Shown here: one piece after another, positions 1,584 to 23,452 of the stretch | How positions within the stretch are numbered: the stretch's first letter is position 1 | Layout: every line of letters begins with the position of its first letter | Source of the DNA: a virus | Direction: 5' to 3' (one strand) | IMG/VR virus record: IMGVR_UViG_3300030707_000108 | Span: 1 to 27,974 of that record | Length of the DNA stretch: 27,974 nt | Made by a program: the position numbers and the translations under genes | The notes under the pieces: generated by a model | The model's database searches: none | What the model saw: only the letters and a program-made list of their open reading frames with translations | Told to the model about the DNA's origin: nothing

Positions 1584-4412
1584 TTACGGTGTCTTCGCGA
1601 AGTCCTTCGCCCTGTTCGTCCAGTATTCTTTTCTCCATGCATCGAATGCCGCACGGTCGATCCCGGAAGGAATAGTATTCGGGTTGATATGAATGATGCG
1701 GCTGTAGTCCTGATGGAACGTTGTCGGCATCTCCGCAAGAGCTCCTCCTTGCGTTTGAAGCATGTGATGGATATTGATCGATTTGCCATCAGGTCCAATG
1801 GGGGCCAACCCCTTCTGCATTCTTGCTAGATTCGTCCGCCCTTTGCGATCTATCCGCTGCGGATCAATCAAGTCGTTCCTCTGATAGATCTTATTCCCTC
1901 GGAACTCCGTTGACCCCGTCCAAAAGGTTCTTGCCGGAGACCGAAGCGCTGGATTTGCTAATGCGCCGCGAGCCTCTTCAAGGGCACCTTTCGTCTCCTT
2001 GAGATATGCCTTGGTGAGCTCGACCGCGTGACGCCCCTCGGCTGTCTTGACGTCTTTTTCCAACTCAGCGACAAGGTGCTCCGTGTCCTTGGCAAGTTGG
2101 CTCGCCTCGGCGACGGCGGCCTCCACGGTCGCCATCTCGCGAGCAGCGGCAAGAGGGGTCTTAAATGACTTGGCAGTCTTCCACGCCTTGTCGAGAGCCT
2201 CCAATTTGCTGCTAAGGCGCGCAGCGGAACTCTCTACCTGCAGGGCGGCTTTCCCCAGCCCGCCGACAGACCTGGCAGCCTTGCTGATCCTCGCCAACCG
2301 AGCGAGCTTGCCGCCTACTTTCGCGAAGTTGCCCAAGAGCGGCGCGGCGCCAGCAAGCGACAAGCCGGCGCCTACATAGTCCCCGCGGTAGCCTGAGATC
2401 GCGGCATTAGCAAGATCGGCCACACTGCCGATGACTGGAATAAAACCCAGCAGGTCCAATACGAACTGAAGGGTGTCTAGATTTTCATCTGTGCTCAGGT
2501 CCGGATGTGGAGGCGGCGGACCGTAATTGCTGAGACCTGCGGGGCGAACCGTATTTGGCCCGGTGTCATGCATCCGCCCTTTGAGGTAAAACCCTTGCAC
2601 TTCCGGAGGGAGGTTCTCAGGCTTCACTTGGCGGACAGAACCGTCCGGCATCATCACAGGTATCGTTCCGCGAGTCGGGTATCCTAAAGGCGCGCCGGTC
2701 GGATTGGACGGTGGACGAGGCGGCGGCGGACTCTCTTCATCGTCATCGTCACCTTGGGATGGCTGTCCGCCCGCGAAAGCCTTCGTCCACTGTCCGAATC
2801 TGTTCCTGAGTTGACTTGGATTGAAGTGGTGTTCCTGAACAGGAACTAATTTGCCGCCAATACCAGGTTTGTCGGCGTTGCCGAAGCGTTCGTTGTACGC
2901 TTCGATGTTTTGCATCTCCTGCTCGGGATCGAGGCCCTCCTCTTGCTGCACGGTCTGCCGGCTCTTCCAGCCGCCGGTCACGCGGATTTGGTTGGCTTGG
3001 GCTTCGTCACGCTCGTCGCGCGCGAGAATGCTCGGGGCTTCGCATTGGATGTCGATCAGGTGGGGCGTGTCCAGCGGCAGCCGGCCGTAGTCGATCGCGT
3101 ACTCGATTGCTTCCCACAGCACCTGCGTGAACACCTTCTTGTAGGCGTTCTGCTTCTGCGTCGCGCTGCGTACGAACGGGGCGTGGGCGGTCAGGCTGGC
3201 GGTGTACGCGGCCATGTCGGCGCCGCTGCCTGTGGCGAGCCATTCGGGGGCGTTCCAGCGGCAGCCGGCGCCACGCAGCGTCGCATGCAGAATGTCGACG
3301 AAGCCCGAGGCGTTGCCGGCTCCTGGCGGTTGCACGTATTGCATGCCGCGGGGGATGTCGGCGATGGTGCCGGGCTCGAACTGCTTGTAGTTGATCTGCT
3401 GACCCGTCAGCGGGTTGGCGCGCGTGAAGTCGATCTGCTGCGTGTTCAGGAAGTTCTGGATCTGGGCTTGCGTCGCCGACTCGTGCTGGCGGATGTAAGC
3501 GAGAGCGGACTGCACGGCGGCGCCCTCGGCCATGTTGTTGCGCAGCTTCTCGGCTACCGTGAACGCATCGTGCGTGCTGAAAGCGAAGTCGCTCAGGCCG
3601 CGCTTCACCGTGCGCTTGACGTTGATCTTGAAGTGCAGAATCTCCTCGATCGGTACTTCCTCGCGGATTTGGTTGGCGTGGTTGGAAGGGTCGGCCATGT
3701 AGAGAACGTTGTAACCGTAGACCGTTTGCACATCCTCCGGGTCGGTGTGGATGCCGAACGACCAGTGCTCCTGGGTCGCCTCGGGGACGCCGGTCATCGA
3801 GACCTGCTCGGGCTCGACGCAGCGGACGGTCATGCAGCGATTGTCGTTGTCGGGGTAGAAACGGAGGAAGAACTCGCCGTCTTCGCGCGAGCGCCAAAAG
3901 AGTTCACGCTCCCATTCGGACCAGTCATTGACGTCGCAGAACTCGTCGATGATTTCCTGGACCTTCAGTGCGAAGGAAGAAGGCTTGGCGCTCTTCTTGG
4001 TGTCGTTCTGGTTCTTCCGGTCCACGATGCGGTACTGGAAACCGTCGCCGATGACGTAGGCTTGCAAGCCGCTCAAGAAGCCAATGGTGTAGCCGTTCAT
4101 CGTGCACAGCAGGCGTGCCTGGGCGCGAAGCAGGGAGAGCTGGGTTTCGGTGTTCCAGAAGGGCCAGTTCTGGCCGTAACGGCGGTCGGTGGGCTGGCTG
4201 ATGGGGTAGGCAAGCCGGCCGCCGTCACGATAGCGGTCGAGGAGATCGACGTACGAGCTGAGCCAGTAATCCCAGTTGGCGGAAGCTTCCAGAACGCGTT
4301 CGGCGTTCTTGAGCTGATGGAGTTCGAGCTTGGCGCGGATGAGGCGTTTCTGCTCGCGGATTTCTTTGAGACTGAGGGGCTTGTCGGCGTGGCCGTTGGG
4401 ATTCGCGTCCAT
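1584..4412 (-). CDS. Phage portal protein fused to pre-toxin and LHH (HNH/EndoVII) nuclease
   Basis: A 942-residue fusion. Residues 1-515 are a portal protein, probably lambda-like, with a conserved central block around QFEPGTIADIPRGMQY and GADMAAYTASLTAH. Portals form the dodecameric DNA gate of the capsid. A junction motif (NPSQLRNRFGQW, about 541-552) is followed by an Asp/Glu- and Pro-rich linker to about 640. A hydrophobic pre-toxin segment comes next (about 656-700, FIPVIGSVADLANA and GDYVGAGLSLAGAAPLLG), then a helical region. The last 120 residues are an LHH nuclease: KIYQRNDLIDP, GRTNLARM, GLAPIGPDG, His882-His883 in INIHHMLQT, and His900 in TTFHQ. Portals usually end near residue 500-550, so the fusion nearly doubles the length. 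AAGGAG precedes the start by about 10 bases. The immunity gene follows after 13 bases. The toxin third is visibly lower in GC than the portal part. Nuclease activity and delivery are inferred. Confidence 0.9.
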   Translation of the reverse strand: MDANPNGHADKPLSLKEIREQKRLIRAKLELHQLKNAERVLEASANWDYWLSSYVDLLDRYRDGGRLAYPISQPTDRRYGQNWPFWNTETQLSLLRAQARLLCTMNGYTIGFLSGLQAYVIGDGFQYRIVDRKNQNDTKKSAKPSSFALKVQEIIDEFCDVNDWSEWERELFWRSREDGEFFLRFYPDNDNRCMTVRCVEPEQVSMTGVPEATQEHWSFGIHTDPEDVQTVYGYNVLYMADPSNHANQIREEVPIEEILHFKINVKRTVKRGLSDFAFSTHDAFTVAEKLRNNMAEGAAVQSALAYIRQHESATQAQIQNFLNTQQIDFTRANPLTGQQINYKQFEPGTIADIPRGMQYVQPPGAGNASGFVDILHATLRGAGCRWNAPEWLATGSGADMAAYTASLTAHAPFVRSATQKQNAYKKVFTQVLWEAIEYAIDYGRLPLDTPHLIDIQCEAPSILARDERDEAQANQIRVTGGWKSRQTVQQEEGLDPEQEMQNIEAYNERFGNADKPGIGGKLVPVQEHHFNPSQLRNRFGQWTKAFAGGQPSQGDDDDEESPPPPRPPSNPTGAPLGYPTRGTIPVMMPDGSVRQVKPENLPPEVQGFYLKGRMHDTGPNTVRPAGLSNYGPPPPHPDLSTDENLDTLQFVLDLLGFIPVIGSVADLANAAISGYRGDYVGAGLSLAGAAPLLGNFAKVGGKLARLARISKAARSVGGLGKAALQVESSAARLSSKLEALDKAWKTAKSFKTPLAAAREMATVEAAVAEASQLAKDTEHLVAELEKDVKTAEGRHAVELTKAYLKETKGALEEARGALANPALRSPARTFWTGSTEFRGNKIYQRNDLIDPQRIDRKGRTNLARMQKGLAPIGPDGKSINIHHMLQTQGGALAEMPTTFHQDYSRIIHINPNTIPSGIDRAAFDAWRKEYWTNRAKDFAKTP

Positions 4413-12374: not shown

Positions 12375-12506
12375 CTCGTTCCAAGGCTTTGCCTTGGAAC
12401 GCACCGCTCGGACAAGCTTTCCATCGTGAGAACGCCGAAGCATCCACGGCGCACGGCAGGCAGAGCCTGCAAGACGGTGCGTTTCGAGGCAGAGCCTTGG
12501 AACGAG
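12375..12506. repeat. 132-bp palindromic element (MITE/REP-like) with nested hairpins
   Basis: The terminal arms 12375-12406 and 12475-12506 are inverted repeats matching at 29 of 32 positions, with the outer 14 bases exact (CTCGTTCCAAGGCT). Inside lie a perfect 11-bp hairpin with a TTT loop (12377-12401) and a 6-bp hairpin with an AGA loop (12456-12470). The element fills most of the 202-base gap between the protease and decoration genes. It carries no gene. Confidence 0.88.
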
Positions 12507-12568: not shown

Positions 12569-13372
12569 ATGTCTCTGACACCCGGCGGATATCGGTTTCA
12601 ATACCCTCCCGGATTTACGTTCAGCAAATACCTCCCGCCCGCCAGTCTGCAAATCGAGGCGGGCGACCTGCTGTACTGGACCGGCAGCGTCGCGCAGCCA
12701 TTGTCGAGCAAGACGCTCCTGGGTAGCCAGGTGCTCGATCAGGCTGCCGTCAAGCCGCTCTTTCTGGGCGTTGCGGTCAGCGGGCGCATTACCGCCCAGA
12801 GTACGAGCGTCTGGCCCATCGATTACGTCGAGGCAGCATCCAATTGCCTCTACCTGGCGGATTGTGCCAGCGCTACCTGGGAAGTCGGCGACCTCGTCGG
12901 CGTCGTGCGCAACGGCGGCGCGACGGCGCTGCAAGATCAGCAGGTCGTCAAGGTTTCCTCCGACAACCTGGCGGTCGGGCAGGTGTTTCGCCGGGAACCG
13001 AGCGCCGTTACGCAGGTGCTTTGCAGGCTCTGGGGAAAAGGCGACCCGCTCGGCGACCTGAATCGTTACGGCTTGGGCGGCAGGCAGGGGACAGGCGTCA
13101 CTGCCCTCTCGGACGGCAACCAAACGCTCGACCCATCGTACACGCCCATCCTGTCGATGGTGCCCACGGCGGCCCGCACGGTAAAGCTCCCGGTCGAGGC
13201 GCAATCGTCTGGGCTGGAATTTCGCTTCACGAACCTATCGGCGGGCGCTAACAGCGTCACCTTCCAGGGCTCGGCCGGCGGCTCAATCAACGGCAACGGC
13301 GTCGTGCCCCAGAACAAGAGCGGCATCTTCTGGTGCGACGGGACCGTGTGGTACGGCACAGTCAGTGCGTAG
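12569..13372 (+). CDS. Head decoration / capsid-associated protein (putative)
   Basis: A 267-residue beta-rich protein between the prohead protease and the major capsid gene, where siphoviruses place head decoration proteins. The N-terminal half (ASLQIEAGDLLYWTG, KPLFLGVAVSGRI, EVGDLVGVVRNGG) reads like the repeated beta-strands of trimeric decoration proteins. The C-terminal part (TFQGSAGGSINGNG, GIFWCDGTVWYGT) resembles the short beta-motif found at the end of some phage surface proteins. No membrane or signal segment is present. AAGGAC precedes the start by about 6 bases. The function is inferred mainly from position. Confidence 0.65.
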   Translation: MSLTPGGYRFQYPPGFTFSKYLPPASLQIEAGDLLYWTGSVAQPLSSKTLLGSQVLDQAAVKPLFLGVAVSGRITAQSTSVWPIDYVEAASNCLYLADCASATWEVGDLVGVVRNGGATALQDQQVVKVSSDNLAVGQVFRREPSAVTQVLCRLWGKGDPLGDLNRYGLGGRQGTGVTALSDGNQTLDPSYTPILSMVPTAARTVKLPVEAQSSGLEFRFTNLSAGANSVTFQGSAGGSINGNGVVPQNKSGIFWCDGTVWYGTVSA

Positions 13373-13479
13373 CAGTGGCAGTGGGTAGTGGCGAGTGGTG
13401 CGTGGCGAGAGCGTTTTCCTCACCACTACTCACTCGCCATTACCTACTACTCACTCACCACTCACCACTACCCACTACA
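13373..13479. repeat. GTGGCGAGTG-family palindromic repeat, copy A
   Basis: The left side is built of GTGG(C/T)GAGTGG-type units and the right side of the complementary CACCACT(AC)TCACTC units, around a short centre near GCGTTTTCC. It starts directly after the decoration gene's TAG and stops just before the capsid gene's Shine-Dalgarno (AAGGACG). Translated in frame with the capsid gene it gives a false N-terminus (TTTHSPLPTTHSPL). Confidence 0.85.
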
Positions 13480-13493
13480 GCAAGGACGCTTCG

Positions 13494-14864
13494 ATGAATC
13501 TTTTCAAAACACGTCAGCTCTATGAATCACGCCGCGGGGCCAGTGCGGCTGGGCGAATCGAGTTCGTCAACGAGTGCCGGCACTGGCTCGGACTCTGCGA
13601 CGATCACGGCAACGATCACAAAGACCCGGCCGGCAACCGCATGCTCAGGGACCGGCAGATCAAGGCCGAGCAGTTTAGCGTCGCCGAGCTGGCCGAGGCC
13701 ATCGTCGGGGCCAATTGGCGCTTTTTCTTCGATCCCGCCAACCAGGGAAGCATGTCCGGCGCCCTGCAGCACCGCATGCTCGTCGAGCAGCAGTATCCTG
13801 GCGACCGGCGTGCCCTGCTCGAAGCGACCGGGGTCGGCGTCGATCCGACTGCTTTCCTGGACATCAACGCCTTCACCTCCGTGGTCGGCGGCCTGATCGA
13901 GGTGAAAATCCTGGAGAACTTCCAGAGCCCGATGTTTCTGGCCGAGGCCCTCATGCCTGCGATGCCGACAAAACTCAACGGCCAAAAAGTCTTCAACGCG
14001 GCACGCATCGGCGACCACGCCATTCGCAGGGTTCCCGGCGAGCCGCACGCCCGAGCCCAGTTCGCCGAGCGTTACGTGACCACGCCCGCCACACGCGAGA
14101 ACTCGCTCGCCGTCGACGTTTACAAGGAAACGGTTTTCTACGACCTGACCGGAAACATTCTCGAGATGGCGGCGAGCGTTGGCGAATGGCTCGGCTACCG
14201 CAAGGAACTGGACGTGATCGACTGCTTCATTGGCGTCACCAGCCAGAGCAGCGGTGTCAGCGCGTTCAATTACGGCGGCACGACCTACAACGCGTACTCC
14301 GCGAGCCAGACAATAGGCAAGAGCACGCTCGTCAACCAGCAGTCTAACGCGCTCAATGACTGGACTAACATCGAGTCAAGCTGGCTGCTGTTCGCCCGCA
14401 TGCAGGACCCAGAGACAGGAACGCGCGTGCTGACCAACCCCAACGTCATCGTGGTCAACCCGGCGAAGCTGAACACGGCTAAGTTGATCCTTGGCGCAGC
14501 CCGCACCGAGGTACGCACGTCCGGCGGCACCACGCAGGCGACAGCGCCGACGTTGCAGGTCCGCGATACCCCGGGCGCTCCCTACGGCAACGAAATCGAG
14601 GTTTACTGGTCGCCGCTCATCGAGCAGCGCTGTACCGATGCCACCGGCCTGAACTTGTCGCAATCCAACGCCAACCTCTACTGGTGGCACTTCGAAAGAG
14701 GCAGGCCGTTCAAATACATGCAGAATTGGCCGTTGACAACGTGGCAGTTCAGCGGCGGCCAGTACGAACTCCTCGACAAGGGCATCGTGGCCACCTACGG
14801 CGCCAACGAGCGCGGCATCCCCAGCGTTTGGAGCCCGTGGCACGTGGTGAACAATACGAACTAA
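13494..14864 (+). CDS. Major capsid protein
   Basis: A 456-residue protein in the position of the major capsid gene, right after protease and decoration genes, and of typical capsid size. The region QSPMFLAEALMPAMPTKLNG followed by AVDVYKETVFYDLTGNILEM and a long helical and beta-rich second half (VNPAKLNTAKLILGAARTEV, TWQFSGGQYELLDKGIVATY) fits HK97-fold capsid proteins of phages. The start at 13494 (MNLFKTRQLYES) is preferred: AAGGACG lies about 6 bases upstream, and the earlier in-frame start at 13395 only reads through the repeat element. It would self-assemble into the head together with the portal, which is encoded far away on the other strand. Confidence 0.82.
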   Translation: MNLFKTRQLYESRRGASAAGRIEFVNECRHWLGLCDDHGNDHKDPAGNRMLRDRQIKAEQFSVAELAEAIVGANWRFFFDPANQGSMSGALQHRMLVEQQYPGDRRALLEATGVGVDPTAFLDINAFTSVVGGLIEVKILENFQSPMFLAEALMPAMPTKLNGQKVFNAARIGDHAIRRVPGEPHARAQFAERYVTTPATRENSLAVDVYKETVFYDLTGNILEMAASVGEWLGYRKELDVIDCFIGVTSQSSGVSAFNYGGTTYNAYSASQTIGKSTLVNQQSNALNDWTNIESSWLLFARMQDPETGTRVLTNPNVIVVNPAKLNTAKLILGAARTEVRTSGGTTQATAPTLQVRDTPGAPYGNEIEVYWSPLIEQRCTDATGLNLSQSNANLYWWHFERGRPFKYMQNWPLTTWQFSGGQYELLDKGIVATYGANERGIPSVWSPWHVVNNTN

Positions 14865-14883
14865 TGGTCAGTTTTGGCTCACT

Positions 14884-14975
14884 TCTCCCCGGTACCAGGG
14901 GAGAGGCTATAGGACCCATAGGTCCCATAAGACCCATACACCCTCTTCCCTGTACTCAGTGGAGGGGCAGGCAAG
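14884..14975. repeat. Hairpin and CCCATA-repeat element
   Basis: The 142-base gap after the capsid gene holds a perfect 7-bp hairpin (TCTCCCC / GGGGAGA, 14884-14904, loop GGTACCA). Three ACCCATA/TCCCATA units follow (about 14913-14939), then a second imperfect hairpin (CCCTCTTCC...GGAGGGG, about 14941-14967). No gene is seen. The first hairpin could serve as a terminator-like stop after the highly expressed capsid gene, although no T-run follows it. Confidence 0.7.
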
Positions 14976-15006
14976 ACCCAGGAAACTGATCGTTGAGAGC
15001 TACAAC

Positions 15007-15294
15007 ATGGCGATAGTTGACAACCTCACAACCGCGTACACGAACTACAGCCTGATCCTGGTGGCGCTCACCCAGGTCATCGCCAACCCAAGTCAGGCCA
15101 ACATCGAGGCGGTCGTGCTGGCGGCGACGAATGCCGGCGTGGTCACGCCCAAGCCGACCTACAGTGTGGACGGCAAGAACTACGACTGGGTCGGTTATCA
15201 GAAATTCATCATCGATTCGATGGATACGCTGCGGCAGCGTATCCAGGATGAAGGCGGTCCTTTTCAGCTCGTAACGCGAGGCATTGGTGGCTAA
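15007..15294 (+). CDS. Hypothetical 95-residue protein after capsid gene
   Basis: A small protein (MAIVDNLTTAYTNYSLILVA, then NPSQANIEAVVLAATNAGVV and DWVGYQKFIIDSMDTLRQRI) made mostly of helices, without signal or membrane segments. I do not recognise a family. The start at 15007 has GAGAG about 8 bases upstream. It overlaps the next gene by 8 bases. Its location between capsid and tail genes suggests a small connector or virion protein, but the sequence gives no direct support. Confidence 0.65.
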   Translation: MAIVDNLTTAYTNYSLILVALTQVIANPSQANIEAVVLAATNAGVVTPKPTYSVDGKNYDWVGYQKFIIDSMDTLRQRIQDEGGPFQLVTRGIGG

Positions 15295-15622
15295 TCAATC
15301 GTTGACATCAGCGGTCGTGAACGTGGCAACCTCCGGCGACAATGTCATCGTGACGGGTGTGGCCGGCAAGATCATCCGCGTCCTGAACTTCGTGCTGCAG
15401 CCGTCGGCGATGGTGGCGTGCACCTGGAAGGACGGCTCGACCGCCTTGACCGGACCCATGAGCGTGAGCACATCGGGCCTTTATCCCGGCTGGGTTCCGC
15501 CCCAGGCGGGAGGGTTGACGGTAGGGCACTTCGAAACAACGGCGGGAAACAGCTTGGTGCTGAATCTCGGGGCTAACACCCAAGTCAGTGGCTACGTCAA
15601 TTACCTACTCGCTCCGCAATAA
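15287..15622 (+). CDS. Hypothetical beta-rich 111-residue virion protein
   Basis: A small protein rich in beta strands (SLTSAVVNVATSGDNVIVTG, IIRVLNFVLQPS, SLVLNLGANTQVSGYVNYL). The pattern resembles small phage surface or fibre-like beta domains. The GTG at 15287 is chosen as start because GAGG lies 5 bases upstream. It overlaps the preceding stop by 8 bases, so the two genes are probably translationally coupled. No family is recognised, and a head-surface or head-tail joining role is a guess from position. Confidence 0.65.
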   Translation: MANQSLTSAVVNVATSGDNVIVTGVAGKIIRVLNFVLQPSAMVACTWKDGSTALTGPMSVSTSGLYPGWVPPQAGGLTVGHFETTAGNSLVLNLGANTQVSGYVNYLLAPQ

Positions 15623-15648
15623 GCGGACCATACCAAGGAAGGTGACTC

Positions 15649-16113
15649 ATGGCTTTAGGACGACGTTACAGCATCTGGGGGCAGCGGGCTTGCGCGGCCT
15701 CGGCCCCGCAAACCATTATCGGCGTCACGGCGACCACGGCGGTGCGCCCGTTCTGGTATGACATCATCATTGGCAGCTCGGCCACGCCCGCGGATAACGC
15801 GATCCTCTGGGAAGCGCAGCGCTATTCGGCGGCCGGCACGGGCGGCAGCACGACGAGCCCCACCGCGCTCGACCCAGGCGACCCGACCAACCCGACCAGC
15901 ACGTCGGTGCAGAACAATTCCACGGACCCCACCTACACTTCGAACACGATCCTGTTCTACGTGGCCTTGAACCAGCGCGCGACGCATCGCTGGATCGCCG
16001 ATCCGAACGGCCCGATGATTACGCCCGCAACAGCCAATAACGGCATCGGCATGTGGGCCACGAACGCCTCGTTTACCGGCAACATCAACATGACGCTGCA
16101 CTTTGGAGAGTAG
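15649..16113 (+). CDS. Hypothetical 154-residue virion protein
   Basis: A Ser/Thr/Asn-rich protein without membrane segments. Its phrases (RRYSIWGQRACAA, PFWYDIIIGSSATPADNAIL, THRWIADPNGPMITPATANN, NMTLHFGE) point to a compact beta fold, but I recognise no family. The start has a strong AAGGAAGG about 6 bases upstream. It lies between two small unknown genes and the zinc-ribbon pair, in the connector region. A structural role in the virion is inferred from context only. Confidence 0.7.
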   Translation: MALGRRYSIWGQRACAASAPQTIIGVTATTAVRPFWYDIIIGSSATPADNAILWEAQRYSAAGTGGSTTSPTALDPGDPTNPTSTSVQNNSTDPTYTSNTILFYVALNQRATHRWIADPNGPMITPATANNGIGMWATNASFTGNINMTLHFGE

Positions 16114-16237
16114 GGAAAAGGGAATAGGGGCGAGGGGCGAGAGAAATGAAGGGCTTCGCCCGTCAATGCCGCGATAACAGGCGGCAGAGCCGCCCTCGTG
16201 TCCCTCGCCCCGAGTCCCCAGCCCCTAGCCCCACTTG
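16114..16237. repeat. GGGGCGAG-family palindromic element with triloop hairpins
   Basis: The left part (GGGGCGAGGGGCGAG, about 16127-16141) is mirrored by the right part (CTCGCCCCGAG...CCCCTAGCCCC, about 16203-16232). Between them are two hairpins with 3-base loops: GGGC-TTC-GCCC (16151-16161) and GGCGGC-AGA-GCCGCC (16180-16194). It fills the gap between two structural genes and starts at the upstream stop codon. Confidence 0.75.
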
Positions 16238-16244
16238 AGGAACC

Positions 16245-16835
16245 ATGGCGCGTATTTGTCCATCTTGCAAACTTGCGTTTCGGGCGCACGATCCCGGCGT
16301 GGACGTGCAAATCCCGCAAGGTCAGGAGAACGTCCAGTGGGTGGGATTCATTTCTCCGCCGGCAGGCGGGTATCAAGTCTGCAATGACTGCCTGAAGATC
16401 ATCGCGCCGGAGCGCTGGCAGCCGCTGCGCATGCCCGAGCGGTCCATCCACACCGCGCTCAGTCGCATGTACTGCGCTCTCTGCAATAACTACGCCCGCG
16501 AGGATCAAGACCCTGGCGAAAACGGCGTGCTGCACGCGATCCGTCTCACCGAAGAGGACGTGGCTGGCACGGGAGAGAAGCCGGGCGTGCGCCTGTGCTG
16601 CCACGATTGCTTGCTGAAGTGGCGACCAGTTGTCTTCGAGCGCTGGCAGCGCGAGTTGATCGTGAACCCGGTCGGGCTGTTAGAGGATAAGCAAACGGGC
16701 ATCTGGCACCTGGTGCATGGCGGCATTCACGGTCAAGGCAAAAACAAGCGGGCAGCCGTGGACGATTTTGTTGGCCTGGGCGGGATCATGGCTTGGCCCG
16801 CGGAAGAAACCCTTGGTGAATACAACCTCGTATGA
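16245..16835 (+). CDS. Zinc-ribbon-containing hypothetical protein (196 residues)
   Basis: Several Cys pairs mark it: MARICPSCKLAFRAHDPG at the N-terminus, GYQVCNDCLKII, MYCALCNNYARED and RLCCHDCLLKW. This gives at least two probable zinc-binding knuckles. The C-terminal part (LLEDKQTGIWHLVHGGIHGQ, WPAEETLGEYNLV) is not recognised. GAGG sits 4 bases before the ATG, and the stop overlaps the next gene's start (ATGA). Being translationally coupled to another Cys-rich protein suggests that they work together, perhaps in head-tail assembly. No enzymatic motif is visible. Confidence 0.7.
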   Translation: MARICPSCKLAFRAHDPGVDVQIPQGQENVQWVGFISPPAGGYQVCNDCLKIIAPERWQPLRMPERSIHTALSRMYCALCNNYAREDQDPGENGVLHAIRLTEEDVAGTGEKPGVRLCCHDCLLKWRPVVFERWQRELIVNPVGLLEDKQTGIWHLVHGGIHGQGKNKRAAVDDFVGLGGIMAWPAEETLGEYNLV

Positions 16836-17191
16836 TCGGCACCATCCAAGACTACCGAGACAGCCTGATTGGCGTACCCATGTGCAAGCCGCGTGGAGCG
16901 ACGGGCTCCGTCCTGATCTCCACGCCCTTTGACAGCGACCGGGTTGTCGAACGCGAAATGGTCATGTGCTGCCACTGCGGCGGGCACTGGCTATGGGTCA
17001 AGGGGAGCGGCCGGCGGCGTGGCTGGTGCATGCGTTGCAGCGGGTTCACTTGTGGACAGCGCGCATGCGATGCGTGCGTGCCGATGGAACGTCAGATCGA
17101 AAACATGGAAGCGGGCCGCGATAGGCTTTCGATGCCGATCTGGGCGGCGATGCCCAAGGAAGTCAGCGCGGGCGGAATTCTGTTGGGGTGA
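16832..17191 (+). CDS. Cys-rich zinc-finger hypothetical protein (119 residues)
   Basis: A small protein with a Cys/His cluster: VMCCHCGGHWLWVKGSGRRR, then WCMRCSGFTCG and CDACVPMERQIENMEAG. Six or more cysteines could hold two zinc ions. It is encoded with a 4-base ATGA overlap after the previous zinc-ribbon gene and ends 3 bases before the 877-residue gene. I cannot name its function. The Arg-rich stretch GSGRRRGW suggests nucleic-acid or protein contacts. Confidence 0.7.
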   Translation: MIGTIQDYRDSLIGVPMCKPRGATGSVLISTPFDSDRVVEREMVMCCHCGGHWLWVKGSGRRRGWCMRCSGFTCGQRACDACVPMERQIENMEAGRDRLSMPIWAAMPKEVSAGGILLG

Positions 17192-17194
17192 TTC

Positions 17195-19828
17195 GTGCCG
17201 AATCCAGCTATTGTACAATCTGTGAAAGCCGGCACGACGATCTCCGCCGTCAGTAGCCTGACGTTCAACGTCAGTGCCACAAGCGCGGGCAATCTCCTTT
17301 ACGTAGCACTCTCTTTCACGGGCAATCCGCCTACGATTACGCCCCCCAGTGGCTGGTCGTTGCTCAATTCTAATTCGTCGGGCGCCAACGGTTACGGCAT
17401 ATCGGTCTATTACATCGCCAACGCTTCGAGCATAACCAGCGCGCTCTTCAGTTTCTCTTCATCGGTACAGGTAGAGGGGGTCTTTGCGGAAATCTCCAAC
17501 GCGAACGCGGTTGATCAGAGCAACACGTCCGCTGGCACCGTGTCCAACTCGGAAATCTCTGCCACCATCGTGCCAACGCAGGCTCCGTCGATTGCGATGG
17601 CGGCGTTCTCAAATAATGGCGATGGTGGGAATACTCCCACAAATAGTTACACGCTTTTGCAGAGCAAGGTCAACAATTCAACCAGTTGCGCAATCGACAC
17701 AGCTTATCTCGTTCTCACCTCAAGCGGCTCTGGAACTTCGACTTCTCTCACTTTGGTGAATGGCCCCAACAATTATGGCGGCTCGATATCCAATTTCTAC
17801 CAGGTCGCCGTCGTCAACTTGACGACAATGTTCTTGCCGCAACCAGAAGTGCCGGCGAACAGTTGGCGGCAAATGCGCGATGCGTCCGTCAATGCACGAG
17901 CGCAGACGTATTTCGATCCAACACAGGCATGGTTTCTGAGCGATCCCTTCAAGGCGCTGGCCAATCCTGTCGAATGGGACCACCAGCCCATCGAATACCC
18001 GTATGCGTCCTTCCACATGATGGCCAGGCCGACTCACCCAGACCCGTTTTATGCCGATCCGACGCCTCAAGCGATCTTGCCGGCACTCCCCCTTACCCCA
18101 GGGTGGACGCAACTTCCGCCGGAGAAGCCGATCAGCCGGGCCTTTGCCCCAGCTCGACCCGACGCCACTACTGTCTGGCCGATCTACCCGGATTGGTCTT
18201 CTCCAGTGCAGGCCGAATCTTTTTGGCACGGCAACTATGAGCGTGCGCCTCGACAGTCCAACGTCCGTAGCGGGCCGGAAATTCATGTGACGCTGCCGTA
18301 TCCCAACGACGCAGTGCAGAATCTTCCGCCGAAGTACGATCAGGCCGTTCGCACACGGCAACAGCGCCCCGTGCTTTACTCCGACATGGTGCTGATCCCC
18401 AATATCCAGCCGGTGGTCCTGGAGATCAACCACGCTTACGACGTGCAACCAATGCCGCCAAGCCGAGGTGCATGGTTCAGGCCGGTCATTGCCGGTGGGA
18501 TGGAGCGCACGGCGACCGTGCTGGTCGAGGTTCTGGAAGATGTGCTGCAAGTCTGGAATCTCCAGCAGACGCAACCAACCAGGCCGTCAAGGCTGCAACC
18601 GCAACCCGCCTATCAACACGAATTGAGCGTTACGGCGCCGGCTCAGGTTCCCCCCATGATTCCTTACTTCGTCGTGCCGCAAGTGCCGACGCGCCCGGCC
18701 CGGCCGGACAACATAGGCGAGACGGTGACGCGCCTGGTTCCCTATGAGGAAACAGTCAGTACTGTTCAAGGCTGGCATGTGCCCGCTGCAAGTCCATTGC
18801 CGCGACAGGCGCACAGGCCGTTCATGCAGCAGGACACGACACCTACCCTGGATTTTGCCGTCGATCTTGCACCATTCCGGTGGGACAGTCCCTCGGCTGT
18901 ACCGCCGCGACGCACGCCGAGTCTCCCTGGATTCATGCAGGCAGGGCCCATGCTGAATCCCACCGATCTCGACCAGGCGCTCTTTGAGGTCTGGCAAGGA
19001 CAAACGCAGGTGCCCGTTTCGCGGCGCGGCCCGATGCAGCCGCCCGCGCCTGCCGAGCTTTCAGTCACGGCGCCTGCGCAGATACCGCCCATGATTCCCT
19101 ACTTCGTGAGCCCGGCGGTAAGCCCGCGACAAGCACCACTCCGGCTCTATGCGGATTCGGCAACCAAGGTAACGCCGTTCCTCGAGGACCCGGCTGTACT
19201 GGAAATTGTCGGCACGACGACTACCCCGTTGCCGATCCGGCCGGCGGTTCGCCAGCCGCAAGGCGAAAGCGCCTTTGTGTCCACGTTCCAGCTAGACCCT
19301 GCGTTGTCGCGAGGCTGGGATGTGCCGCAGGGTCTTCCTCGGAGCATGCCCGCGCGCCGCGAGGGCCAGAACGTATACCCGATCATCGCTCCCGACAATG
19401 TTCCTTCTCTAAGATCGTGGGATGTCGCGCCGCAGCTTCCCGTAAGGCAGGCTGCCAGTGCCCGTCCAGCTGTCTACGAGTCGCCGGCCCTCTGGGCGTG
19501 GACGCAGCTCACCGTCGATCAATTGCAAGCCTGGCATACTCAGCAGCAATCACTGCCGCTTCGTCAGGGCAGGCGACTGGACTTCCCTGAATCGCGCAGC
19601 CCCATTCAGGAGACGGATGCCGCCAGCTTCGAGGCGTGGCAGGGGCAGCAGCAGGTGCCGGCCGGCCTTTGGGTGCCGGTCTCGATGCGACCGGCGCTTT
19701 CTGCGGAAGGACAGAGCGCGCCGTCCTGGCACGCGGCCAATGTGGTGATCGTGTCCGGACCCTATTGGGCCGTCGCGGCACAGATCTTTGTGGCTGGAGC
19801 GGTACAAGCGGAGATCGAACCATTATGA
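17195..19828 (+). CDS. Large repeat-rich virion protein (877 residues)
   Basis: The start is a GTG at 17195, 3 bases after the previous stop. Residues 1-210 form a beta-sandwich-like domain (GNLLYVALSFTGNPPTITPP, YGISVYYIANASSITSALFS). The rest is a Pro/Gln/Arg-rich region built of degenerate units of the type W-x(4-7)-P-x-R-x(3-5)-RP (for example WDVPQGLPRSMPARR, WDVAPQLPVRQAASARP, WHVPAASPLPRQAHRP). One longer unit occurs twice (ELSVTAPAQ, V/I, PPMIPYFV near 18620 and 19060). The first domain is visibly less GC-rich than the repeats, so the gene looks mosaic. No enzymatic motif was seen. It is probably a fibre, whisker or surface-exposed virion protein. ATGA overlap with the next gene. Confidence 0.65.
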   Translation: MPNPAIVQSVKAGTTISAVSSLTFNVSATSAGNLLYVALSFTGNPPTITPPSGWSLLNSNSSGANGYGISVYYIANASSITSALFSFSSSVQVEGVFAEISNANAVDQSNTSAGTVSNSEISATIVPTQAPSIAMAAFSNNGDGGNTPTNSYTLLQSKVNNSTSCAIDTAYLVLTSSGSGTSTSLTLVNGPNNYGGSISNFYQVAVVNLTTMFLPQPEVPANSWRQMRDASVNARAQTYFDPTQAWFLSDPFKALANPVEWDHQPIEYPYASFHMMARPTHPDPFYADPTPQAILPALPLTPGWTQLPPEKPISRAFAPARPDATTVWPIYPDWSSPVQAESFWHGNYERAPRQSNVRSGPEIHVTLPYPNDAVQNLPPKYDQAVRTRQQRPVLYSDMVLIPNIQPVVLEINHAYDVQPMPPSRGAWFRPVIAGGMERTATVLVEVLEDVLQVWNLQQTQPTRPSRLQPQPAYQHELSVTAPAQVPPMIPYFVVPQVPTRPARPDNIGETVTRLVPYEETVSTVQGWHVPAASPLPRQAHRPFMQQDTTPTLDFAVDLAPFRWDSPSAVPPRRTPSLPGFMQAGPMLNPTDLDQALFEVWQGQTQVPVSRRGPMQPPAPAELSVTAPAQIPPMIPYFVSPAVSPRQAPLRLYADSATKVTPFLEDPAVLEIVGTTTTPLPIRPAVRQPQGESAFVSTFQLDPALSRGWDVPQGLPRSMPARREGQNVYPIIAPDNVPSLRSWDVAPQLPVRQAASARPAVYESPALWAWTQLTVDQLQAWHTQQQSLPLRQGRRLDFPESRSPIQETDAASFEAWQGQQQVPAGLWVPVSMRPALSAEGQSAPSWHAANVVIVSGPYWAVAAQIFVAGAVQAEIEPL

Positions 19829-20250
19829 GCAGTGCCATTGGCCAGGTTACGACGCAAGCGGTTGCCGGTCATTCCGGGATCGTGCTCATGGCGCGACTGG
19901 TCGGCCAGGGCGGTTTGCCCGTGACTCAGGCGACGATTAACTCCGTGGAAGTCCAGGTAACGGATTTGACCTTGGTTCAAAACGGCCAGGCGGGCAGCGT
20001 GAATACGTATACGCCCGCGGTTGCCAGCGTAATCTTCAACGCACTCCAGCAAACACCGCCCTGGAGCCAGGACAACCAGTATCAGCCCGGAACTGACGGC
20101 CTGTGGGGCTACAACTTCTTGTACGTCGTACCGGCGGTGAATTTCGAGAACAGCGGAGATACCTTCCAAATTGATGTCGCCTTTGTGCCGGCGGCGGGCG
20201 AACAGTTTGAGGTTTCGTTCCTTGTGCCAACGGTAAAAACCTTTATCTAG
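19825..20250 (+). CDS. Hypothetical 141-residue virion protein
   Basis: A beta-rich protein (HSGIVLMARLVGQGGLPVTQ, INSVEVQVTDLTLVQ, LWGYNFLYVVPAVNFENSGD, EQFEVSFLVPTVKTF) coupled to the 877-residue gene by an ATGA overlap, so the two products are probably made together. No family is recognised; a partner or chaperone of the repeat protein is one possibility. Its TAG stop at 20248-20250 is the first triplet of a palindromic repeat. Confidence 0.68.
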   Translation: MSSAIGQVTTQAVAGHSGIVLMARLVGQGGLPVTQATINSVEVQVTDLTLVQNGQAGSVNTYTPAVASVIFNALQQTPPWSQDNQYQPGTDGLWGYNFLYVVPAVNFENSGDTFQIDVAFVPAAGEQFEVSFLVPTVKTFI

Positions 20251-20324
20251 TGGCGAGTGGATAGTGGTGAGTGGCGAGAAAGTATGCTCTCGCCACTCAC
20301 CACTACTCACTCACCACTACCCAC
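20248..20324. repeat. GTGGCGAGTG-family palindromic repeat, copy B
   Basis: It begins with TAGTGGCGAGTGG, where TAG is the stop codon of the preceding gene. The inner arms GTGGTGAGTGGCGAGA and TCTCGCCACTCACCAC are perfect inverted repeats around a short AAGTATGC centre. It ends 5 bases before the next start codon, leaving that gene without a clear Shine-Dalgarno. Confidence 0.88.
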
Positions 20325-20329
20325 GTGCC

Positions 20330-21019
20330 ATGCAACTGAATCTGAGTGCCGACCCGAGCGTCTGGGACAATGTCGAAAGCGTGACGTTTCAGTCCACGCG
20401 CAAAGGCAACCGCACGACCACACTCAACGGCGTGCAGCGCACCACCCTCAGCAAGAAAGAACTGGCTGCCTCCGGAGGCGTGTATTCCGCACTGGATCTG
20501 GTTTTTCTGATTCCGGCCGTCAGTCTGCCGGCTGGTTGGTTGCCCAAGCCGGCGGATGTCATCACGGACTCATTGAACACAGCCTTCACGGTTTTGGAAG
20601 CAGACGGCCAGGTACGCGACGGAACTGCATTCCAGACCTGGAAGTTGATTTGCCGCGACCCGATTATTGCCTACGATCTGCAAGACCTGATCAACATCGA
20701 ACGGGCCGCGCTTTCCGCCGATGACACCGGCGCTGTCGTCAAGACTTTTCCACCGGCCGGCGGACAAACGCTCTATCAGAATCTTGCCTGCCGTGTCCAG
20801 GTAGTCAACGAGAGCGTGGGCGATCAGCGCCTCATCCACGCGGTCGAAGGTTCGTATGCGGTCCATGTCTCGAAACAGCTCAGCGTGAATGTCGCCGAGG
20901 ATCGGATCAAATGGGCGCCACAGGGCGGGCCGGTGACCTACTACCTGGATCTGATCGCCTATCACGATGCCCAGATGATCGACCAATTGCCGATCCTGGA
21001 AGCGAGGCTCCGCCCATGA
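20330..21019 (+). CDS. Putative head-tail connector (stopper-like) protein
   Basis: A 229-residue protein starting MQLNLSADPSVWDN. A segment with SALDLVFLIPAVSLPAGWLP and KPADVITDSLNTAFTVLEAD and the later TWKLICRDPIIAYDL resembles head-closure or stopper proteins that bind below the portal. The call is tentative and leans on order, since it lies before the tail terminator-like gene. An ATG at 20330 is used. There is no Shine-Dalgarno, because the upstream bases belong to a palindromic repeat, and the in-frame extension from 20264 is repeat-derived. It overlaps the next gene by 4 bases (ATGA). Confidence 0.6.
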   Translation: MQLNLSADPSVWDNVESVTFQSTRKGNRTTTLNGVQRTTLSKKELAASGGVYSALDLVFLIPAVSLPAGWLPKPADVITDSLNTAFTVLEADGQVRDGTAFQTWKLICRDPIIAYDLQDLINIERAALSADDTGAVVKTFPPAGGQTLYQNLACRVQVVNESVGDQRLIHAVEGSYAVHVSKQLSVNVAEDRIKWAPQGGPVTYYLDLIAYHDAQMIDQLPILEARLRP

Positions 21020-21231
21020 TGCACGGCGAGATGAAATGGGATGACGACGTGCTGGAGTCAGTCTTCGAGACCGGCTACCAGAACCTTGTGGAAGTCGCGT
21101 TCCTCGTTGGACCGCAGTCAAACGAGGTGCCCAAACCGCCCTCTCGTTTAACCGCGAGCCAGCGGCGAGCGCGCCAACAGACTGGACGCTCTTTCCTTCT
21201 GTTCACGCGCTCGCCGCTGGCTCGCGGCTAA
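21016..21231 (+). CDS. Small protein truncated by a palindromic repeat
   Basis: The ATG at 21016 overlaps the preceding stop (ATGA) and opens a 71-residue frame. The first 43 residues (MMHGEMKWDDDVLESVFETG, YQNLVEVAFLVGPQSNEVPK) look like a genuine phage protein. The remainder (from about RLTASQRRAR onward) is translated from the palindromic element that starts at 21143, which also supplies the stop codon. It is therefore probably the remaining N-terminal part of a longer gene, or a small gene whose end has been replaced. The family is unknown. Confidence 0.55.
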   Translation: MMHGEMKWDDDVLESVFETGYQNLVEVAFLVGPQSNEVPKPPSRLTASQRRARQQTGRSFLLFTRSPLARG

Positions 21232-21317
21232 ACGAGGGTCCCCAAAAGGAGCGCGCCAACAGACCGGACGCTCTTTCCTTCTGTTCACGCGCTCGCCGCT
21301 GGCTCGCGGTTAAACGA
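21143..21317. repeat. 31-bp-arm palindrome with tandemly duplicated right half
   Basis: The arms 21143-21173 and 21206-21236 are inverted repeats with one mismatch in 31 bases, extended by AACAGA/TCTGTT inside. The 69-base segment 21167-21235 is repeated at 21249-21317 with only two differences. The element covers the end of the 71-residue frame and most of the gap before the tail terminator-like gene. It carries no gene of its own. Confidence 0.9.
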
Positions 21318-21352
21318 TATTCCCAAACGGTGGCTCGAGAAACAGGCAAAGC

Positions 21353-21874
21353 ATGACCGACGCGGATCGCGACACGGCTGATGCCGTGATCAGCCTCTGG
21401 AGGCAGACCAAAGCACTGTCGGTGCTCTTTCAAGTGCCGCCGACGTGGGACAGCGTGCGCAAGAGCGATTCCAAGAATGCCGTGGCCATGCCTTACGCGA
21501 CCATCGAGGTGAAGAAGGGCGCTGAAAATAAGCGCCTGACCGGAGGCGTCTACCACGATTACCGAGACGTGACGATCAAGATTGCCGGGCCGATGGCAGC
21601 GTTGGGCGCGAGCGTCCAGGCGCAGCTGCCGGCAGTGTTGCCGGCAGGCCCAGTGAGCGTGATCAATGCGGCAAAGATCCTGGTGCTGTCGGTGTTCAAC
21701 CTGAAACTCGGCACGCCCAACAACGCGACACTGACCTTTCCCTCCGGCGCCCGCTTCGTCCGCTGGTGGCCGCAGAATGACGGTGAAATCGCCAAAGACC
21801 CAACAGCCAAGGCCGGTCAAGACATCTGGGTTGCCAACCTCAAGGGGCAAGTGTGGTCGGTGCGAATGGATTAA
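21353..21874 (+). CDS. Putative tail terminator / tail completion protein
   Basis: A 173-residue protein. The pattern helix (AVISLWRQTKALSVLFQVP), strand (MPYATIEVKK), then a strand carrying Tyr/His (YHDYRDVTIKIAG) and a following helix matches small tail-terminator and tail-completion proteins that cap the tail tube next to the head. Length and position (just upstream of the tail tube gene) agree. The start at 21353 has only a weak upstream AGGCAAAG. It lies 10 bases before the next gene, which has an excellent AAGGAG. I regard the call as likely but not proven. Confidence 0.62.
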   Translation: MTDADRDTADAVISLWRQTKALSVLFQVPPTWDSVRKSDSKNAVAMPYATIEVKKGAENKRLTGGVYHDYRDVTIKIAGPMAALGASVQAQLPAVLPAGPVSVINAAKILVLSVFNLKLGTPNNATLTFPSGARFVRWWPQNDGEIAKDPTAKAGQDIWVANLKGQVWSVRMD

Positions 21875-21884
21875 GGAGCGAGCG

Positions 21885-22103
21885 ATGAGTCCTGAAGAGA
21901 CCGTAGCGAGTCTTGAGCAAGCTCAGGCCAAACTGCAAGAGAAAGCGCAAGACGGCATCCCCGTGAAGGGTGTCATCCGCAAGCAGATGAGTTTCGACAT
22001 CCACTGCGGCCACTGCCCGCGCTGCGGCGTGACGTTCGCCCTCAACGACTGGGGCAGGCACCTGTGCACCTGCGGGGCCTGGCTGAATCTTAGTGGCGAG
22101 TGA
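21885..22103 (+). CDS. Small zinc-ribbon protein (72 residues)
   Basis: A helical N-terminus (EETVASLEQAQAKLQEKAQD) is followed by a four-Cys ribbon (HCGHCPRCGVTFAL and HLCTCGAWL). An AAGGAG 7 bases upstream gives a firm start. The last three codons before the stop (Ser-Gly-Glu) and the TGA itself come from the palindromic repeat that begins at 22091, so the original end may have been longer or different. The function is unknown; it is expressed between the tail terminator-like and tail tube genes. Confidence 0.7.
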   Translation: MSPEETVASLEQAQAKLQEKAQDGIPVKGVIRKQMSFDIHCGHCPRCGVTFALNDWGRHLCTCGAWLNLSGE

Positions 22104-22164
22104 ATAGTGAGTAGTGGCGAGAGGGCATTTTCTCGCCACTCGCCACTACTCACTGGCCACTCAT
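22091..22164. repeat. GTGGCGAGTG-family palindromic repeat, copy C
   Basis: It starts with TAGTGGCGAGTGA and has perfect inner arms AGTGGCGAGA / TCTCGCCACT around a GGGCATTT centre. Here the leading TAG is out of frame, and the upstream zinc-ribbon gene reads three codons into the element before its TGA. It ends about 10 bases before the next gene's Shine-Dalgarno. Confidence 0.87.
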
Positions 22165-22182
22165 TGAAGCACGGAGGTTTTC

Positions 22183-22671
22183 ATGGCTAATAATTTCCAG
22201 CGTGGCGATCTGTGCCCGGTAGTCTTCCAGCCTATAGGCGGGTCGCCGGTAACTCTCAATATCACGTCGCACAACGTTGATTTCACATCGACGTTGTTCG
22301 AGGTCACCCACACCGGCCTGAACGGGGCTGGCGTGGCCCGCATTGCCGGTAAACAGGATGCGAGCGGCACGGTGAAGGCGGATTACGATTCGGATCTTTC
22401 GCCCTATGCCGCCAGCCCGAACATCCGCAACGGCGTGTCGGGCGTGATCCTGTTCTACGTCGGTGCGCCCACGGCACCCGTTGGCGTAACGGGGCAACAG
22501 CCGCCCGTGCAAGGCAAGCCTCTGCAAGTGCCCGTGATTATCGAAAAGGTTCACTACGAGTCTGCCGTGCACAACCAAGTCAAATTCTCGTTTGAGGTGA
22601 AGCTCAACGTGATTGCCGGTCTCGCCGGAACGAGCAATCCGCCATTGCAGATCGTCTACCCGGCCAATTAG
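22183..22671 (+). CDS. Major tail tube protein (putative)
   Basis: A 162-residue protein in the place of the tail tube gene, directly before the frameshifted tail chaperone. The beta-rich sequence (TLNITSHNVDFTSTLFEVTH, ARIAGKQDASGTVKADYDS, VSGVILFYVG, VPVIIEKVHYESAVHNQVKF) follows the typical tube pattern in which strands flank a modification loop. ACGGAGG about 6 bases upstream supports the start. It would polymerise around the tape measure protein. The stop codon TAG is the first triplet of repeat copy D. Confidence 0.75.
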   Translation: MANNFQRGDLCPVVFQPIGGSPVTLNITSHNVDFTSTLFEVTHTGLNGAGVARIAGKQDASGTVKADYDSDLSPYAASPNIRNGVSGVILFYVGAPTAPVGVTGQQPPVQGKPLQVPVIIEKVHYESAVHNQVKFSFEVKLNVIAGLAGTSNPPLQIVYPAN

Positions 22672-22751
22672 TGGTGAGTGAATAGTGGTGAGTGGCGAGA
22701 AAATACATCTCTTCACTACTCGCCACTACTCACTATCCACTACTCACTACC
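22669..22751. repeat. GTGGCGAGTG-family palindromic repeat, copy D
   Basis: It begins with TAGTGGTGAGTGA, where TAG is the tail tube stop codon. The left GTGG(T/C)GAGT units are mirrored by ACTCGCCAC / ACTACTCAC units on the right around an AAATACAT centre. It ends just before the AGGAG of the tail chaperone gene. Confidence 0.87.
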
Positions 22752-22763
22752 CAGGAGTTGCAC

Positions 22764-23192
22764 GTGCTCGAACTAGGAAGGGAAGTTGTTGTTGAAGCTT
22801 TGGGGAAGAAATGGACGATAGGCAGGCTGACGCTGCGCATCGTCAAGGAGTTCAAGCATTACCTCGAGGAGCTGGTCGGGGATCCCTATGCACAGATCGA
22901 CGACAAGCACTTTGATCTGTTGCCGAAAGAGGAGCAGCTTGCCCTGCTGAAAGAGGCGAAGCAGGCCAAAGACGATTTGGCCTGCTTCTCGCTGAATTGT
23001 CCTCTGGCGAAAAAATACCTTGCGCGCGAAGAGGGTGTCGCCAGGTTCGGGCAGCTCATGCTTCAGCAGAGCCATCCGGACATCACTCCCGAGGACGCCT
23101 TCGACGTCTGGATGGCCGTCGGCCAGGAAGAGATGCAGAAGGCCCTCCAGAAAGCGCAGGGATCGCTCCCAAACGCGGAGGCGGCCGCTTAG
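22764..23192 (+). CDS. Tail assembly chaperone, unshifted (gpG-like) product
   Basis: A 142-residue protein starting at GTG 22764, with AGGAG 6-7 bases upstream; longer in-frame starts only read the repeat element. It is highly helical and charged (REVVVEALGKKWTIGRLTLR, KEEQLALLKEAKQAKDDLAC, PEDAFDVWMAVGQEEMQKAL) and sits between the tail tube and tape measure genes. In siphophages this is the slot for the chaperone that coats the tape measure protein during tail assembly. The frame ends at the TAG 23190-23192, inside the loop of the frameshift hairpin. Confidence 0.8.
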   Translation: MLELGREVVVEALGKKWTIGRLTLRIVKEFKHYLEELVGDPYAQIDDKHFDLLPKEEQLALLKEAKQAKDDLACFSLNCPLAKKYLAREEGVARFGQLMLQQSHPDITPEDAFDVWMAVGQEEMQKALQKAQGSLPNAEAAA

Positions 23193-23452
23193 GCGGCCGG
23201 CCACAGGCTCCGGACTGGGAGACGATCTACAGGCGGTTGCTGCACGGCAGCACCGGCTACAACACGGTCGAGAAAATCGAGAGCTGCACACTGACGGAAT
23301 TGGCGTTGGCGCTCGATGACAATTTTGATCCATCTCGGCCGCCCAGTGGCTTCCCGGCAATGTCGGCGGCCCAAAGCCGGGCGTATCAAATGTGGTGGCG
23401 CGGCTTGACACCTCGGGAACGATTGGACGCTATCAGGCGCGGGCAGGCGTGA
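22764..23452 (+). CDS. Tail assembly chaperone, -1 frameshifted (gpGT-like) product
   Basis: Ribosomes slipping back one base at CCCAAAC (23168-23174) leave the gpG-like frame and read on to the TGA at 23450-23452, giving about 229 residues. The extension (PKRGGGRLGGRPQAPDWETI, then TLTELALALDDNFDPSRPPS and a helical end MWWRGLTPRERLDAIR) has normal protein character and no start codon of its own with ribosome-binding support. In lambda the equivalent GT extension recruits the tail tube protein to the tape measure. The next gene starts 1 base after the stop. Slippery site, spacer and hairpin are all visible; the slippage rate is not. Confidence 0.85.
23168..23199 (+). promoter_or_regulatory. 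Programmed -1 ribosomal frameshift signal
   Basis: The heptamer CCCAAAC is in the right phase (C CCA AAC) at 23168-23174. After a 7-base spacer comes a hairpin with a 7-bp all-GC stem (23182-23188 pairing with 23193-23199) and a 4-base loop TTAG that contains most of the unshifted stop codon. All parameters match known -1 sites. Confidence 0.88.

Follow-up and report, generated by a model that had tools for sequence, protein, structure and literature searches.

The virus record IMGVR_UViG_3300030707_000108 of IMG/VR (27,974 bp, the whole of which was analysed and is called the window here) carries long palindromes between genes of its rightward late module, which runs from about 11 to 27 kb. 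Each is made of heptamers in tandem, arranged as two inverted arrays, and fits directly between a gene's stop codon and the Shine–Dalgarno (SD) sequence or start codon of the gene that follows. Since the same seat is filled with ever-changing sequence in phages and in bacterial operons, the conserved feature seems to be position and shape, not letters; the unit is GAGTGGC or TAGTGGC in the window, and TAGGCAG, GAGGGGC, TAGGGAT or others elsewhere. On balance, the evidence leans towards a class of intercistronic inserts whose arms are kept complementary by turnover at the DNA level, and which are tolerated or favoured at this seat as the stem folds away.

Heptamer hairpins in the late module

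The initial annotation reported four palindromic copies, at 13373, 20248, 22091 and 22669, and all four are borne out as hairpins of 25–32 bp (z-scores of −5.7 to −10.2). It overlooked the 7-nt period of the arms and three further hairpins in the same operon (16111-16227, 12375-12506 and 21143-21236), the first of which is also heptameric. The five heptamer palindromes are as follows.

13373-13480, plus strand: copy A, arms 13380-13404 and 13452-13476, between an open reading frame (ORF) at 12569-13372 (stop TAG 13370-13372) and the putative capsid gene 13494-14864.
16111-16227, plus strand: fifth heptamer palindrome, of the GGGGCGAG type, which opens with TAG 16111-16113, the stop codon of ORF 15649-16113; the next gene begins at 16245.
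20248-20324, plus strand: copy B, arms 20248-20279 and 20288-20319; its TAG 20248-20250 ends ORF 19825-20250; the ATG that follows is at 20330.
22091-22163, plus strand: copy C, arms 22092-22122 and 22131-22161; stop TGA 22101-22103 of ORF 21885-22103; next ATG at 22183.
22669-22753, plus strand: copy D, arms 22669-22698 and 22713-22742; its TAG 22669-22671 ends ORF 22183-22671; AGGAG follows directly, then GTG 22764.

Stems were defined by ungapped matching of the arms, and predicted RNA folds were compared with 200 dinucleotide shuffles per copy. The z-scores are −5.65 for A, −10.2 for B, −6.9 for C and −6.2 for D, with predicted energies of −41 to −55 kcal/mol; an equally good fold occurred in none of the 200 shuffles. 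The best period is 7 nt in the arms of A–D and of the hairpin at 16111. In A–D, the units read T/GAGTGGY on the G-rich arm and its complement on the opposite arm. The 5' arms of B, C and D share a common order of heptamers; over 37 nt, the arm of D is 92% and that of C 81% identical to that of B. By this likeness B, C and D are copies of one another, which amounts to copying within the genome.

The placement at stop codons is as precise as first described. The genes before B and D end in ...TTT ATC TAG and ...GCC AAT TAG, respectively, and in both the TAG opens the repeat. The gene before C ends in ...AAT CTT AGT GGC GAG TGA, where the repeat supplies the last codons (S-G-E) and the stop. Copy A follows ...AGT GCG TAG, continuing with CAGTGGCAGTGG, and its paired arm begins 7 nt past the TAG. 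The ends were likewise rightly placed just ahead of the next gene's start region: all four copies end 10–21 nt before the start codon, which leaves space for an SD-like stretch in A, C and D.

Rfam holds nothing matching the window repeats, copy B gave no blastn matches in phage and plasmid collections, and the exact B/D arm pattern was found in no viral contig beyond this virus.

Filled and empty sites in related phages

Relatives with and without the copies were compared, as the initial annotation had proposed. The set includes two near-identical viruses (L019 and L020) and the more distant L021, which is 90–93% identical on the left side of the late module and 72–77% on its right side. At junction D, the window has TAG, the hairpin and then AGGAGTTGC; L021 has TAA followed directly by AGGAGTTGC, and L018 has TGA followed by GGTGGCTATGG. 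Both relatives thus lack the hairpin, and the upstream protein has the same final residue in all three. The D hairpin is therefore an insert, seated exactly behind the stop.

Copy C is also absent from L021. At junction B, L021 has a palindrome of another heptamer family (ACAGCAGAAAGCAGGCAGT / ACTGCCTACTGTCTACTGT), and the proteins of both viruses end alike; its fold is not better than those of shuffles (z −0.58), which marks it as a decayed or weak member. Copies A and 16111 are retained in L021 with changes. Among the 42 pairs of the hairpin at 16111, there are three two-sided and four one-sided changes that preserve pairing, and four pairs are broken, one of them by a gap. Seven of the eleven varied pairs thus still pair, which fits correction of one arm by the other as well as selection.

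Brevundimonas: dispersed copies and orthologous junctions

Palindromes of the GAGTGGC family are dispersed repeats in Brevundimonas, with 36, 45 and 30 blastn match rows (both strands counted) in three genomes. The regions fetched contain 56 palindromes: 33 are flanked by co-directional, 6 by convergent and 6 by divergent genes; 10 are inside called genes and 1 is at an end. A stop codon falls within −35 to +12 nt of an edge in 37 of the 45 intergenic copies, compared with 11% of random inter-ORF points. Once the hairpin is removed, 30 of the 33 co-directional copies are found in gaps of at most 50 nt, although such gaps make up only 897 of 10,857 nt (8%) of co-directional spacer. By these two measures, the positions of genomic copies relative to stops are not random. 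The initial annotation had offered target specificity for stop codons as one reading: the bias in placement is real and general, but specificity of insertion is not separable from selection or survivorship.

Further surveys of Verrucomicrobiota and Alphaproteobacteria with strict patterns returned 1 of 288, 2 of 289 and 1 of 145 genomes; they say little on abundance, because the patterns, which demand extended perfect arms, overlook most of the dispersed Brevundimonas copies found by blastn.

One orthologous seat, termed the L166-type junction, was compared across 30 Brevundimonas species. It holds a hairpin in 22 and none in 8. In every one of the 30, the upstream gene stops at the same codon, and the frame leading up to it is open. 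Period 7 is present in 20 of the 22 hairpins, in at least 10 unit sequences that include GAGTGGC, TAGGCAG, TAGGCAC, TAGGCAT, TAGGGAT, AGGGACC, TAGGTGC, TAGGTCG, TAGGGGC and AGCAGGC. No more than about 5 nt separate stop and stem in 19 of the 22, and in 21 the end of the stem is at most 6 nt from the start codon that follows. At the empty junctions, stop and start overlap or nearly do so (e.g. TAATG, TAGTG). Mapped onto a tree built from the flanking genes, the junction's five states require at least 13 changes, and even sister species are unlike: L197 has a hairpin and L211 none, while L196 has a heptameric and L198 another palindrome. Turnover of the unit at a fixed seat is thus fast. No account of such turnover was found in the open literature, subscription journals lying outside the search.

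A housekeeping junction, fabD–fabG, behaves similarly. It is empty in four cases, and elsewhere holds several unrelated families of palindromes, including non-heptameric ones of the CGTCATCCTCGGG, GCTCATCCCCGC and CTTCTCCC types (L097, L099, L101, L105, L108, L109 and L111). As a separate observation, the same spacer in L100, L102, L103 and L106 contains inserts of 300–450 nt that resemble small genes and have no palindrome.

Hairpins in other viruses

Viral contigs were searched with patterns for three heptamer families. After removal of duplicates and of non-heptameric or very short palindromes, 30 hairpins remained, 29 of them with period 7. Co-directional genes flank 24; of these, 19 have a stop within −25 to +12 nt of the stem, and 22 have the following start no more than 60 nt away. 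The adjoining genes encode major head (L066, L071), portal (L076), major tail (L060), tape measure (L063) and tail (L072–L074) proteins. The G-rich arms are rich in stop codons: all three frames contain one in 29 of 60 half-hairpins, as against 1% of genomic control stretches, which makes it easy for an insert close to the end of a gene to provide a stop codon.

Four isolate proviruses (L022, L029, L030 and L031) share a conserved short perfect palindrome, ACGGTGGCGAGTGA..TCACTCGCCACCGT; it is not heptameric and is probably a different element.

Possible origin and alternative explanations

What the heptamer hairpins do, and how they arise, we infer from these patterns as follows. Sequence would turn over at the DNA level by slippage of heptamers, with copying between sites adding to the turnover, and template switching within the hairpin would keep the arms complementary. 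In the mRNA, one foot of the stem would lie at the stop and the other at the SD sequence or start, so that the folded transcript would hold stop and start nearly as close together as before insertion. Inserts may be tolerated or favoured at this seat because the folded stem keeps the two near each other. Barriers to mRNA decay or processing sites, as known for repetitive extragenic palindromes (REPs) or RNase III sites, could be side effects. A more far-reaching version is put forward tentatively: these would be widespread, self-hiding and fast-evolving intercistronic palindromes, re-copying their arms to stay complementary and, through stem closure at stop and start, keeping genes coupled despite 100–190 inserted nt.

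Several points weigh against this proposal. Ten of the 56 Brevundimonas palindromes are called within genes and six lie in divergent spacers; that survey used a home-made gene caller and windows centred on the matches. Across 62 hairpins, the non-Watson–Crick pairs on the sense strand comprise 57 G–U and 77 A–C. In the Brevundimonas fabD–fabG set, the arms are nearly invariant, and no pair has a two-sided change. Neither junction D nor the Brevundimonas junctions showed a target-site duplication such as a miniature inverted-repeat transposable element (MITE) would leave, though their flanks have diverged; and no enzyme for heptamer inserts was identified.

The best-surviving alternative is plain survivorship, in which a mobile or slippage-made palindrome lands anywhere and persists only where it is harmless, just behind stops. 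It is possible, if on the unlikely side. The residual gaps are short, with little room once SD sequence and start are spared; in gaps of at most 60 nt, 49% of points lie within 12 nt of a stop anyway. The stops in several heptamer frames also mean that an insert near any gene end provides one. On this account, however, longer spacers should hold most copies, and the concentration of co-directional copies in the shortest gaps is the reverse of this; promoters in long spacers may account for part of that bias.

As its other reading, the initial annotation had offered a selected mRNA-processing or stabilising hairpin that would fix the proportions of virion proteins. In its general form, cleavage by RNase III or a barrier to 3'-exonucleases would set the dosage of neighbouring cistrons, as for Escherichia coli REPs and T7 RNase III sites. 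The very stable predicted folds, the location behind stops of co-directional genes and the pair-preserving changes at 16111 all speak for it, as does the re-colonisation of one junction by unrelated palindromes, which suggests a demand for a hairpin of whatever sequence. G–U pairs, however, are not in excess over A–C on the sense strand, and selection on RNA folding is therefore unsupported. Many sister species and related phages do without a hairpin at the same junction, and divergent spacers carry such hairpins too. We consider this explanation doubtful. The narrower role in setting virion-protein ratios finds no support, and a virion-specific one is rejected, because housekeeping operons of the chromosome, fabD–fabG among them, hold the hairpins as well.

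Two further candidates were discarded. Intrinsic transcription terminators, which the long G+C-rich stems at gene ends would suit, are very unlikely: no stem is followed by a T-run, a terminator scan lists none of them, and all lie within one apparent operon. Mobilisation as REPs or REPINs (REP doublets forming hairpins) by a REP-associated tyrosine transposase (RAYT, a Y1 transposase) would explain the stops through a GTAG end, as GTAG-tagged REPs often provide the TAG stop of flanking ORFs near their 3' ends (PMC3733652), yet it is the least credible of all, given that no terminal GTAG/CGTC tag adjoins the stem in A–D, the stems have 25–32 bp instead of 6–13, the unit sequence varies freely, and the RAYT family PF01797 gave no match in any of six Brevundimonas genomes with the repeat (it is present in a Flavobacteriales genome, G001).

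Returning to intercistronic inserts renewed at the DNA level, the junctions that hold unrelated palindromes or none behind an unchanged upstream stop constitute natural filled and empty pairs in cultivable bacteria. With such pairs one can ask whether the inserts alter the coupling of genes or the ends of the mRNA, or are simply tolerated. Short palindromes were first noticed at gene ends decades ago, and to our knowledge there is no agreed reason for their placement; phage late operons are now seen to hold the same elements as bacterial operons.

Neighbouring genes and other features of the window

Two further hairpins of the late module are not heptameric and are related to the above by position only.

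12375-12506, plus strand: long hairpin with 32-nt arms, 91% complementary, 8 nt past the stop of an ORF that ends at 12366.
21143-21327, plus strand: 39-bp hairpin (21143-21236) with a partial tandem copy.

The former is largely absent from L021. The latter occupies the place of the missing 3' two thirds of ORF 21016, relative to a longer homologue in L021 (17403 onward).

The genes flanking A–D had been called virion genes, and this label is reasonable, though shown only in part. A family search of the late genes in Pfam and PHROGs gave mostly no matches. It placed a tape measure gene at 23454; a portal-like protein is encoded at 1584-4412 on the minus strand, and the ORF at 12569 has a weak match to a cement protein. 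The putative capsid gene (13494-14864) has no family match in Pfam or PHROGs and a low-confidence AlphaFold model; the structures predicted for capsid and tail candidates were of too low quality for fold comparison. Neither the tape-measure protein searched against plasmids nor the capsid protein searched against phages gave matches.

Three other observations concern the same genes. The portal-gene region on the minus strand contains a 300-nt direct repeat (396-695 and 2881-3180; 94% identical, spacing 2485 nt), which is a partial duplication of the portal-like gene. Directly before the tape measure gene, two overlapping frames (22764-23452) have the layout of tail-assembly chaperones made by frameshifting, and may be such a pair. 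The spacer after the putative capsid gene (14864-15007) holds imperfect palindromes and ATAGGACCCATAGGTCCCATAAGACCCAT; the spacer of L021 differs at that place.

Comparison with known systems

RNase III processing hairpins occur between genes of phage T7. The hairpins described here likewise lie between co-directional phage genes; those of T7 are not heptamer arrays, and cleavage of the present ones would be hypothetical.

The TAACTGA heptamers of Beggiatoaceae (PMC4679880) are intergenic and contain stops in all three frames, hence they overlap ORF ends only. Unlike the hairpins here, they are direct repeats, not palindromic, and most of them point towards start codons. GTAG-tagged REPs (Di Nocera et al. 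2013, PMC3733652) are palindromic and intergenic, and the hairpins here match them in proximity to ORF 3' ends and in supplying stops. The flanks of B, C and D, however, read CTAG, TTAG and TTAG, and A has a GTAG 7 nt outside its paired arm; REPs have short loops on their stems, whereas the arms here measure 25–32 nt and their unit sequence is not fixed.

The nearest known description is that of the heptameric inverted repeats of Xanthomonas and Nostoc (Rehm et al. 2015, PMC4692102). Their units, GGGAATC or GGGGA(C/T)T, also occur as convergent inverted pairs, 70–75 of which are able to form stem-loops. The G-rich strand is in sense orientation just behind stops, which it can overlap, and in antisense orientation just upstream of the next ORF; most repeats lie between aligned ORFs and few between divergent ones. 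The 7-nt unit and this strand rule are shared by the present hairpins, whose 5' arms in sense orientation contain 48–53% G. In these hairpins, heptamers as a rule come as inverted pairs, and units such as GAGTGGC and TAGGCAG are not quadruplex-forming: the unit in the window is T/GAGTGGY, and G4 runs occur there within the heptamer hairpin at 16111 only. The present hairpins differ further in that many unit families occupy one orthologous seat, that they are found in phage late operons, and that empty sites are resolved.

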